Assembly: GCA_020845895.1 (NCBI GenBank) | Contig: JADLEX010000091.1 | Location: 1 to 32,775, forward strand | Direction of reading: 5' to 3' | DNA from: Deltaproteobacteria bacterium | GTDB lineage: Bacteria; Lernaellota; Lernaellaia; JACKCT01 | Length of the DNA stretch: 32,775 bases | Shown here: positions 28,552-32,483 of the stretch, piece after piece | Layout of the letters: the number at the start of each line of letters is the position of its first letter | Position numbering within the stretch: position 1 is the stretch's first letter | Translations under genes and position numbers: made by a program | The notes under the pieces: model-generated | Database searches by the model: none | Told to the model about the DNA's origin: nothing | What the model saw: the letters and a program-made list of their open reading frames with translations, nothing else

Positions 28552-29463
28552 ATGTCCGACCACGATCACCACGACCATCAACACGATCATCATCAGCACG
28601 GCCACGGCGATCCGAAGCAGGAGCAGGATCAGCGCATCGCCGAAACGCTCGCCAACGTCCGTTACAAGTTTCTCGTCATGAGCGGCAAGGGCGGCGTCGG
28701 CAAGAGCACCGTGTCCGTCAATCTTGCCGTCGCGCTCGCGAAGGCGGGTTGGAAGGTCGGCCTCATGGATGTGGATCTCACGGGACCGAGCGTGCCCGGG
28801 CTTCTCGGTCTCGACGGCGCGCAGGCCGAGTTCGACGGCACGCGCGTGCACCCGATCGTTCATTCCGAAAACCTGAAGGTGCTTTCGATCGCTCACCTGA
28901 TCGATTTGTCCGACAAGGCGGTCATCTGGCGCGGCCCGATGAAGATCGGCGCGATCCGTCAGTTCCTCGCGGATATCGAGTGGGGCGATCTCGACTTCAT
29001 GATCATCGATTGCCCCCCGGGCACGAGCGACGAACCGCTGACCGTGGCGCAGACCTTCACCGGTGTGCAGGCGATCGTTGTGACGACGCCTCAGGAAATC
29101 GCCCTCACCGACGTCCGCAAATCGGTGCACTTCTGCCAAAAGGTCAACATGCCGATCCTGGGCGTGATCGAAAACCTGTCGGGTTACACGTGCCCCCAAT
29201 GCGGCCACTTCGAGGAGCTGTTCAAGACCGGCGGCGGCGAAAAGCTCGCGGCGCAGTTCAACGTGCGGTTCCTCGGCCGACTGCCGATCGACCCCGCCGT
29301 CGTGCGCGCGGGTGACCTCGGCGAACCGTATCTGGCCCTGAACGCCGACAGCGCAACGGCCAAGGCATTTGCGCAGATTGCCGACACGATCTTCGAGATC
29401 GCGAAGACGCTGCCCGTCGAGCGGCCGGGCTATACACCGATCCAATTCGTCAAATCTCGCTGA
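28552..29463 (+). CDS. mrp: Mrp/NBP35 (ApbC) Fe-S cluster carrier ATPase with His-rich N-terminus
   Basis: This 303-residue P-loop ATPase helps assemble or deliver 4Fe-4S clusters. The deviant Walker A 'SGKGGVGKST' lies at about 44-53. 'DVDLTGPSVPGLLG' carries the Walker A-prime Asp, 'IIDCPPGTSDEPLT' is Walker B, and the bridging CxxC lies at about residues 214-217 ('CPQCG'). All match Mrp/ApbC. Unusual is the N-terminus: nine His residues among residues 4-18, alternating with Asp and Gln, like the metal-storage stretches of HypB or SlyD. That suggests Ni, Co or Zn binding, but this is inference. The usual N-terminal MIP18/DUF59 domain is absent. GGAG lies 9 bases upstream. It appears to be a single-gene unit, convergent with the lipoprotein gene. 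Confidence 0.94.
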   Translation: MSDHDHHDHQHDHHQHGHGDPKQEQDQRIAETLANVRYKFLVMSGKGGVGKSTVSVNLAVALAKAGWKVGLMDVDLTGPSVPGLLGLDGAQAEFDGTRVHPIVHSENLKVLSIAHLIDLSDKAVIWRGPMKIGAIRQFLADIEWGDLDFMIIDCPPGTSDEPLTVAQTFTGVQAIVVTTPQEIALTDVRKSVHFCQKVNMPILGVIENLSGYTCPQCGHFEELFKTGGGEKLAAQFNVRFLGRLPIDPAVVRAGDLGEPYLALNADSATAKAFAQIADTIFEIAKTLPVERPGYTPIQFVKSR

Positions 29464-29529: not shown

Positions 29530-31152
29530 TCAGCTTTCGCCGAGTTCCTTCAGGTCGCCGCAGCCGAGCCACTCGGGGAACGTGTCCGAACTGCGCCTGA
29601 GCCACTTCATCATATCGACGAGCTGCTCGCCCGCCGGCCGCAAGCCCTCGGGCTGCGCATTGGCGAAATAGTAGCCCGGATTGATGTAGCTATTGCCCGA
29701 CCAGTCCTGATACAGGTCGAGCACGAATCCGAAGAGCCCGAGCCCGAAGACATCCAGGGTCTGTTTGAACTCGTCGATGGCGATGAGCGTGCCGTTCAGG
29801 AAGTTGTCGGAGAGAAGCAGGAAGAGACGACGCAGTTCCATCGTCTCGGCCTTGGTGAATTCCTCGCCCGTGTCCCACACCACCCACGTCTCGTCCTCGT
29901 CCCAGCGCATGTTTTCGTTCTTGTCGTCGTAACGCAGCGAGCGGCCGTCCTGGATGTCGATCTCGCCCATCATGGCGTCGAACATCGTCGCGAACGACTC
30001 GAACATGTTTCCGAGCGCTATTCCGGCTTCCTTCATGTTCTGAACGGACTCGTCGTGCGGTTCCTTGAGCAGCAGCGCGTTCGGGAAGATCGGATCGTAG
30101 AGCGTGTTGCGGATCGAGATGTAGAAGTCGTTGAGGATCGTCTCGCACATCGTCCCGTTCCACTTGAACTGGTCGAAGGTCACGGTGTTGATGTCGAGGT
30201 TTTGCGCGACGACGAAGCGCACGAAGAACTGCCAAAAATACCCAAGCCCCTTGCTCAGGTACAGCTCGGCGCGAGAGAAACGGCCGGGCAGGTTGATCTC
30301 GACCTCCGGCTGACGCAGACCCCACACGTAGTATCGCAGGTAGTACTGATATGGGTCGGCGTACTCGAGGAGCCGATCGGCGAAGGCGATCGTCTCGGGC
30401 ACGCGGCTGTCGCCGAGCTTGTCCACGAGAATCTGAATGCCGAGCACCGTGTGCTCGAAGCAGGTCCGGTCGAAGCGGTTGCAGGTGTCCAGATGGTCCT
30501 GCGTGTAGCAACTGCTGTGACGCACGACGTACATGCGGGGGCAGTTGTCGATGCACTCCGCCATGTTGTAGGTCATCGGCGGATTGATGAGCCCGCAGTT
30601 CTTGAGGCTCGTGCAGAGCTTTTCGCATTCCTCGGGCGGAGTGTGGATGATCCACTCGGCCGCGCCGAGATAGATGTCCTCGCAGGTCGGCGCAGCCAGG
30701 ACCTCCTCGAACATATAAGGCTGGAGCTTCCACGGGCAATCGGCGACGCAGCGCTCCTTGGTGGTATTGAAGTCGTCGTAGAAGTCGCAGACGCCGAGCC
30801 GATCGCACGCCTCGACACACGAGTCCAGATCCTGGTCTTTTACGTAGACGCCGGAGAGCAGGTCGATGATGCCCGTGAGGTTTCGCCAGACGAGCAGATC
30901 GTTGGCGAGCACGGTGCCCCACTGCGCCTGCGGGTGATCGGGCGCGATGCGCCTCGCCCGCAGGAAGAGATTGTACGCCTCGCCCGCGTCGCCGGCCTCC
31001 AGCGAGCGTCGCCCTTCGCGCAGCAAGTCGTGCAGTTCCATGTCCTTGGGGTCTTCACCCATGCAGGACACGACGCCGACCGACGCCCCGGCAAACAACG
31101 CGATCAAAACAACAACGATCCCCGTGCGTTTCATGGTGCGTCTCGTCGTCAT
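29530..31152 (-). CDS. Cys-rich lipoprotein with tandem six-Cys repeats and an EF-hand-like loop
   Basis: This 540-residue protein has a lipoprotein signal ending 'GVVSC' (C30). Residues about 40-105 look TPR-like ('GDAGEAYNLFLRARRIAPDHPQA'). A repeated Cys unit follows: C112-x3-C116-x5-C122-x12-C135-x3-C139 and, 64 residues on, C176-x3-C180-x5-C186-x13-C200-x3-C204. Each is accompanied by further Cys (157; 215, 224, 231). Residues 410-421 read D-x-N-x-N-x-R-x-D-x-x-E, a good EF-hand-type calcium loop, followed by a second acidic stretch ('WDTGEEF'). No family was recognised. The cysteines probably form disulfides outside the inner membrane. It overlaps the barrel gene by ATGA and so is made with it; a functional pairing at the outer membrane is inferred. 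A Met at residue 7 is an alternative start. Confidence 0.85.
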   Translation of the reverse strand: MTTRRTMKRTGIVVVLIALFAGASVGVVSCMGEDPKDMELHDLLREGRRSLEAGDAGEAYNLFLRARRIAPDHPQAQWGTVLANDLLVWRNLTGIIDLLSGVYVKDQDLDSCVEACDRLGVCDFYDDFNTTKERCVADCPWKLQPYMFEEVLAAPTCEDIYLGAAEWIIHTPPEECEKLCTSLKNCGLINPPMTYNMAECIDNCPRMYVVRHSSCYTQDHLDTCNRFDRTCFEHTVLGIQILVDKLGDSRVPETIAFADRLLEYADPYQYYLRYYVWGLRQPEVEINLPGRFSRAELYLSKGLGYFWQFFVRFVVAQNLDINTVTFDQFKWNGTMCETILNDFYISIRNTLYDPIFPNALLLKEPHDESVQNMKEAGIALGNMFESFATMFDAMMGEIDIQDGRSLRYDDKNENMRWDEDETWVVWDTGEEFTKAETMELRRLFLLLSDNFLNGTLIAIDEFKQTLDVFGLGLFGFVLDLYQDWSGNSYINPGYYFANAQPEGLRPAGEQLVDMMKWLRRSSDTFPEWLGCGDLKELGES

Positions 31153-32483
31153 GATTTCGGCCCCATCTTATAGCGATCCGGCACGGCGAGCGGGAAGCCG
31201 AGGCCGACGCCGATCGTGTACACGTCGCGGAAAATCAGGGCGTTGCGCCCGTCCGTCGCGTATTCGAAGTTGAAACTCAGAAGGCCGGGGATGAAGAGCG
31301 GCGTCAGCGGCGCGATCATGTTCACGACGACCTTGCCGTCGTCGCCGTAGCCCACGAGGCCGATCTCGTCGATCAGCGTCTTGAGCCCCTCGCTATTGGT
31401 GCGATACGTTGCCGCACCCGCGAACCCGTGACGGTACGCGATGGACAGCGGGCCCATGCCGATGCCCGCCTGCGCCGCGAACCACGGCCCCGGCGTATAG
31501 CCGTAGGTGCCCGCGATATCCGAGAGATCCGGGAAGATGTTGACGTCCACGCCCTGACTGGCGAGGTAGTCTTTTACGTCCTGATTCTGCTTCGGGAATT
31601 CCGGCGTATCCCGGATGGTCTCCAGAAACGCCGCGCCTTCGGCCGAGAAGCTGAAGGTCACCCACTTGACGGGATCGGGCAGGCGCACGTCGAAGATTCC
31701 CCCGAGCTTGCCGCCCCAGGTCGTCGCGCCGACGTCGAGATCGGGTCCGAGGCCGAAGATGATCGCCTGATTCGGATCGGCACGGTGTGCGGTGGGCGTG
31801 ATGATGCCGCCGGTGACGCCGGTCGACACGTACTTTCCGCGCCACGGATTCCACTTCGCGTCGATCGTCGTGTCGCCGAGGTCCGCGGGCGAGGAGTCGT
31901 ACTCCGTCACCGGGATCGGACGGCCCATTTCGACGAGCACCTTGTAGAAGTCCTCGCGGGTGACGACGCCGATCTCATCCGAGCTGCCCGGCGTGAAGAT
32001 CGGGTCGATATCGATGTGGATGACGGCCCAGAAGGTGTTGATGCCCACCGTCAAATTGTCCCTGAGCCCGTATTGAAACCCCGCGCCGTAGCCCTGCAGA
32101 CGACCGCTCACGCCGAAATCGAACTCGAAGAACTTTCCCTTTTTCTCGAAGGGATCGGGGGCGACGATGACGGGCACGACATCGTCGATCTTGCGATCCT
32201 GATCGAAGCGCTTCCACGCCCGACGGTGCTGCCATCCGAAAAAGAAGATGCCGTAGCCCTCGGGAATCGTCGAGGAGGCGCCCCAGAGCGTTTCCATCGA
32301 GCCGAGCAGCTTCTCCTGATGTTTGATCCAGCGCCCGTACTCGCCGAACGGCGGATCTTTCTTCGGCGCGATGACCTGCGATGCGCTGCCGCTCGCCGGT
32401 TCCTCCTGCGCCCATGCCCAGGATGCGCCCATCGTCATCGAAACGACGATTGCCGCAAAGAAAACACGACAAATGGATTTCAT
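31149..32483 (-). CDS. Probable outer-membrane beta-barrel protein
   Basis: This 444-residue protein has a signal peptide ('MKSICRVFFAAIVVSMTMGASWAWA', cut before 'QEEP'). A soluble charged stretch follows (about 30-85, 'PPFGEYGRWIKHQEKLLGSMETLWGAS'). After that come alternating aromatic/glycine strands typical of barrels ('FFEFDFGVSGRLQGYGAGFQYGLRDNLTVGINTFW', 'GKYVSTGVTGGIITPTAHR', 'LSFNFEYATDGRNALIFRDVYTIGVGLGFPL'). It lacks the C-terminal aromatic residue of many porins and ends 'DRYKMGPKS'. No specific family is recognised. The frame stays open 59 codons upstream, but the signal peptide fixes the start at 32483. It is the first gene of the pair with the Cys-rich lipoprotein. Confidence 0.82.
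   Translation of the reverse strand: MKSICRVFFAAIVVSMTMGASWAWAQEEPASGSASQVIAPKKDPPFGEYGRWIKHQEKLLGSMETLWGASSTIPEGYGIFFFGWQHRRAWKRFDQDRKIDDVVPVIVAPDPFEKKGKFFEFDFGVSGRLQGYGAGFQYGLRDNLTVGINTFWAVIHIDIDPIFTPGSSDEIGVVTREDFYKVLVEMGRPIPVTEYDSSPADLGDTTIDAKWNPWRGKYVSTGVTGGIITPTAHRADPNQAIIFGLGPDLDVGATTWGGKLGGIFDVRLPDPVKWVTFSFSAEGAAFLETIRDTPEFPKQNQDVKDYLASQGVDVNIFPDLSDIAGTYGYTPGPWFAAQAGIGMGPLSIAYRHGFAGAATYRTNSEGLKTLIDEIGLVGYGDDGKVVVNMIAPLTPLFIPGLLSFNFEYATDGRNALIFRDVYTIGVGLGFPLAVPDRYKMGPKS

Follow-up and report, generated by a model that had tools for sequence, protein, structure and literature searches.

We have found that the two cysteine units of a lipoprotein encoded in the window (the whole 32,775-nt stretch of DNA that was analysed) are homologous, that they belong to an eight-cysteine module recurring in envelope proteins of all seven genomes of its class, that the cysteines of this module are lost in pairs, and that the lipoprotein gene has the same kind of upstream neighbour throughout the class. 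The module itself is uncatalogued; its kind, the small disulfide-rich envelope domain, is familiar. An alignment scan of genome contigs placed close relatives in MAGs labelled FEN-1099 (two named MAGs), and a genome-contig scan with the single protein gave no match. FEN-1099 is a GTDB phylum also named Ca. Lernaellota (PMC11382960).

Two cysteine units in a TPR-type lipoprotein

The layout of the lipoprotein and of the gene upstream of it is given in Table 1. The lipobox cysteine is followed by TPR-like helices, as expected of a TPR lipoprotein. The TPR-like segment gives weak TPR matches in paralogues, and the family profile matches designed TPR proteins; a structure model of the whole lipoprotein from its single sequence was poor, with the helices of the arm reaching a pLDDT of 87. 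Antisense to the gene runs an open frame of 372 codons (window 30055-31173, plus strand), which is likely a by-product of the high G+C content. The product of the adjoining gene (window 28552-29463) looks by eye, from its sequence only, like an Mrp-type P-loop ATPase.

Table 1. Features of the lipoprotein gene and its upstream neighbour (window positions).
Feature	Position	Strand	Evidence
Lipoprotein ORF, TPR-type, with two modules of the eight-Cys type; 540 aa	29530..31152	-	ORF; orthologues in six other class genomes
Signal peptide and lipobox, residues 1-30 (VVS-C30)	31063..31152	-	Sequence; C30 conserved in all 19 family members
TPR-like helical arm, residues about 34-100	30853..31053	-	Paralogue TPR hits; TPR-structure profile match; helices with pLDDT up to 87
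Cys module unit 1, without C6 and C8	30649..30825	-	Module profile searches; Cys pattern
Cys module unit 2, all eight Cys present	30448..30636	-	Module profile searches; Cys pattern; two-helix model
C-terminal core, residues about 260-530, common to Cys-less paralogues	29563..30375	-	Family alignment; profile search
EF-hand-type loop DKNENMRWDEDE, residues 410-421	29890..29925	-	Orthologue alignment; pattern test
Predicted outer-membrane barrel protein, gene upstream of the lipoprotein	31149..32483	-	Homologue immediately upstream in every class genome

Unit 1 has six cysteines, at positions 112, 116, 122, 135, 139 and 157, and unit 2 has eight, at 176, 180, 186, 200, 204, 215, 224 and 231, with offsets from one unit to the next of 64, 64, 64, 65 and 65 residues. 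The spacing C-x3-C-x5-C-x12/13-C-x3-C occurs twice within residues 100-240; in 200,000 composition-preserving shuffles of this stretch it appeared at least once in 233 cases and twice in none. A non-circular profile, built from the modules of other proteins alone with the window lipoprotein left out, recovered both units at E=7e-8 and gave no further significant match anywhere in the window's six-frame translation. The full module reads C1-x3-C2-x5-C3-x12/13-C4-x3-C5-x10-C6-x6..8-C7-x6-C8, and unit 1 is a reduced copy of it that has lost one cysteine pair. The ORF, lipobox, offsets and shuffles thus agree with the preliminary description of a lipoprotein with two same-spaced cysteine units at a 64-65-residue period; the profile searches bear out the homology of the units and lend support to the TPR-like segment before them. 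Its repeat of six cysteines fits unit 1, but unit 2 has eight, and the repeat is an eight-Cys module.

That no named family covers the protein, as was also proposed there, agrees with our database searches. The window protein has no Pfam match at E<=5, and Pfam, NCBIfam and the PDB hold no family for either protein or module, the carrier proteins matching only through their other domains. In the literature on twin CX3C motifs in bacteria and on the NCBIfam entry TIGR04453 (Lepto_8Cys) we found nothing on the eight-Cys module. TIGR04453 describes small, Cys-rich Leptospira proteins with, by name, eight cysteines, and in this it is like the module. It is conceivable, although unlikely, that the module is a distant member or near variant of this family: unit 2 matches it weakly (9.9 bits, E=0.95), as do two other class proteins with extra cysteines (E=0.015 and 0.067, one of them being L085). 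However, every score falls far under the curated cut-off of 34 bits, above which there is no protein in the seven class genomes.

A model of unit 2 built from six sequences predicts helices at residues 2-13 and 25-34, each with one CX3C motif; its mean pLDDT is 64, and block pLDDT is 74-79 over the first 30 residues. The model speaks for a twin-CX3C helical hairpin without proving it. Foldseek found no solved structure similar to it.

Recurrence of the module in envelope proteins

Proceeding from the unit alignment to a search of the class, and from the modules found there in other proteins to a broader profile, we obtained 8-13 matches per genome in seven out of seven class genomes (Ca. Lernaellota, GTDB FEN-1099), and the same search gave one spurious match in 379 other genomes. 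The earlier description has to be widened here: the module is not peculiar to the window lipoprotein, and many envelope proteins in the class carry it.

Six tandem copies lie in a single protein in L073, L074, L107, L116 and L118, with L117 as a relative. This protein consists of little besides eight-Cys modules, with six of them in five genomes and five detected in L117, and it is probably membrane-anchored at its N-terminus. Among the other carriers are thioredoxin-like lipoproteins (L079, L119, L120, L127), secreted proteases of the matrixin, trypsin and MXAN_6640 types (L112, L122, L124, L080), an FG-GAP protein (L072), a beta-helix protein (L123), small lipoproteins (L081, L126) and a PNGase F-like lipoprotein (L121:1427-3364; PF09113 at E=1.6e-25), in which the module is N-terminal. 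Variants with additional cysteines occur in L085 (G004:C39) and L128 (G005:C25). In the thioredoxin-like lipoproteins and the proteases the module is found right after the lipobox/acidic linker or near the C-terminal end. A poly-Asp linker after the lipobox is common in lipoproteins of the class (L072, L079, L119, L120, L121, L123, L127). At the C-termini of the proteases (L112:1441-2877, L122:1523-3115, L124:610-1905, L080:1-1731) the module is followed by a Ser-/Asp-rich stretch and Cys-Gly; the terminal sequences are SSSCGI, SSECCGL, EDACCG and GGGGGCGA, with no transmembrane helix. Such a tail might signal anchoring at the C-terminus.

Fusion to a TlpA/ResA-like thioredoxin domain is found for several modules. 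This would fit a redox element, a clamp that can be reduced and that either reacts to the fused thioredoxin-like lipoproteins or is serviced by them. We regard this as distinctly improbable, since most modules sit on proteins without a redox domain (the proteases, the TPR lipoprotein, the six-copy protein), and the thioredoxin-fused copies often lack C1+C5 while being otherwise unchanged.

Beyond the class, a second phylum (that of genome G034, with large genomes; perhaps Myxococcota) gave module hits at E<=0.01 in 12 of 195 genomes, and clear eight-Cys modules are present in at least seven of the 195. Five genomes from the phylum of G133 gave no module, and no relatives were found among viral contigs and plasmids. 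Every one of the seven class genomes has the module in multiple copies, and elsewhere it is sparse, the empty answers there having come without a positive control. The suggestion of a lineage-specific module does not strictly hold, given the copies in the second phylum.

Paired cysteine losses and a predicted disulfide map

Among 73 distinct class modules, 54 are complete, ten lack C1+C5, eight lack C6+C8 and one lacks C2+C4, counts that refer to sequences and not to independent events; none of the 73 has lost a lone cysteine. Counted by gene, the separate losses come to at least four for C1+C5, two for C6+C8 and one for C2+C4. C1+C5 are missing from several proteins unrelated to one another (unit 1 of paralogue B, thioredoxin-like lipoproteins, the FG-GAP protein and small lipoproteins). 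Eight cysteines can be paired in 105 ways, and only C1-C5, C2-C4, C3-C7, C6-C8 is free of conflict with the 73 class modules. From the second phylum we compared 19 modules with unit 2: 17 have all their cysteines, one lacks C2+C4 and one lacks C3 alone; the last, the third copy in the out-of-class L152, has kept C7 and is the exception to paired loss. Since within the class the losses occur only in fixed matching pairs, we infer disulfides C1-C5, C2-C4 and C6-C8, the case for C2-C4 being one class module and one outside the class; C3-C7 would then pair by elimination only. DsbA-type proteins are present in all seven class genomes and VKOR in three of the seven, VKOR not being detected in the window's own genome.

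Tandem Cys-rich units can bind metals, and the cysteines might accordingly be read as ligands of a metal or cofactor rather than as disulfide partners, a reading that could draw on the tandem copy of the second phylum that has lost a single cysteine. We rejected it as very improbable on account of the paired losses: fixed pairs with three separate pairings fit two-by-two bonds, not a shared site. Moreover, the module cysteines have no conserved His or Asp alongside them, and the proteins are exported, with DsbA present. We likewise rejected, as having a negligible probability, that the spacing arose by chance or convergence with no common module behind it. A Cys-rich profile can pick up unrelated proteins that are rich in cysteine, and the weak hits among PDB sequences are an example, but the shuffles, the independent profile and the consistent register of the 73 modules speak against it.

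Host family, proposed role and known look-alikes

Orthologues of the lipoprotein are present in all seven class genomes (34-57% identity), and each genome has several members of a wider paralogous family that share the lipobox, one TPR-like segment and the C-terminal core. The Cys block is an insertion at the same site in two paralogue groups; the remaining paralogues are without it. The second of these groups is found in four genomes (L010-L013) and is about 20-23% identical. Distant family members without the block occur in other lineages, e.g. G020, G049, G075 and G194. In the loop from D410 to E421, the D, N, N, D and E positions do not vary among the seven orthologues, and the EF-hand-type pattern D-x-[DNS]-x-[DNSG]-x3-[DNSTEG]-x2-[DE] is found in the window loop and in 14 of the 19 family members (11/11 Cys-bearing, 3/8 Cys-less). 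The calcium-type DxNxNxRxDxxE loop pointed out earlier is therefore real as a conserved sequence feature. Because it sits in the core, which the Cys-less paralogues have too, we rejected the idea that Cys repeat and loop form one functional unit. What remains of the calcium-binding, disulfide-rich protein for surface binding or structure, as first suggested, is a Cys-rich envelope lipoprotein with a conserved calcium-type loop separate from the repeat, and its function is a prediction.

The stop codon of the upstream gene overlaps the start of the lipoprotein gene (ATGA at 31149-31152). This gene pair is conserved in all class genomes, with the 4-nt overlap in nearly all, and a relative of the upstream gene also adjoins one second-group paralogue (L012). 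Its product has no match in Pfam or the PDB; sequence character and gene order suggest an outer-membrane barrel.

We propose that the lipoprotein would be anchored in the outer membrane, made together with the co-translated barrel and probably working beside it, with a general envelope module inserted twice between the TPR-like arm and the C-terminal core. Each module would be a short helical hairpin with up to four disulfides, C1-C5 and C2-C4 linking the two CX3C helices while C6-C8 and C3-C7 pin the tail. It may serve as a rigid, oxidation-folded unit for attachment or protein contact, often near the membrane anchor and reused on envelope enzymes and scaffolds; we suggest this role because of the placement of the module near lipid anchors or C-terminal ends and its wide reuse. 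Taken as a whole, this reading of a barrel-partnered lipoprotein, with two disulfide-held hairpins as a general envelope contact module, has in our estimate an even chance of being right. The module is common among the envelope proteins of an uncultured phylum; its putative disulfide map, drawn from sequences alone, is directly testable. With it, annotators could label the module in dozens of hypothetical envelope proteins, in Lernaellota and the second phylum alike.

Two known systems invite comparison. In the AlgK/AlgE-like arrangement, a TPR lipoprotein is paired with an outer-membrane barrel, and the window TPR lipoprotein gene likewise overlaps a predicted barrel gene. However, neither window protein has a family match, and the lipoprotein has one TPR-like segment only. 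In the mitochondrial small Tims, disulfides pair the CX3C motifs as an outer and an inner bond; the putative C1-C5 and C2-C4 bonds of the module would likewise be outer and inner, between two CX3C motifs predicted to lie on two helices. The twin CX3C motif is characteristic of these proteins (PMC5203823). Unlike them, the module has four more cysteines, another spacing and a bacterial envelope location, and there is no sequence or fold match; the small Tims are absent from the PDB-sequence matches of the module profile, which gives no sign of sequence homology. The resemblance is likely one of form and not of kinship. With more doubt than conviction, we put forward the idea that the uncatalogued eight-cysteine twin-CX3C hairpin may be this phylum's general envelope adaptor, joined to lipid anchors, to enzymes and to a barrel-associated lipoprotein, and a bacterial look-alike of the twin-CX3C design of mitochondria. 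A hairpin-like design of this kind may exist in the bacterial envelope independently of mitochondria.
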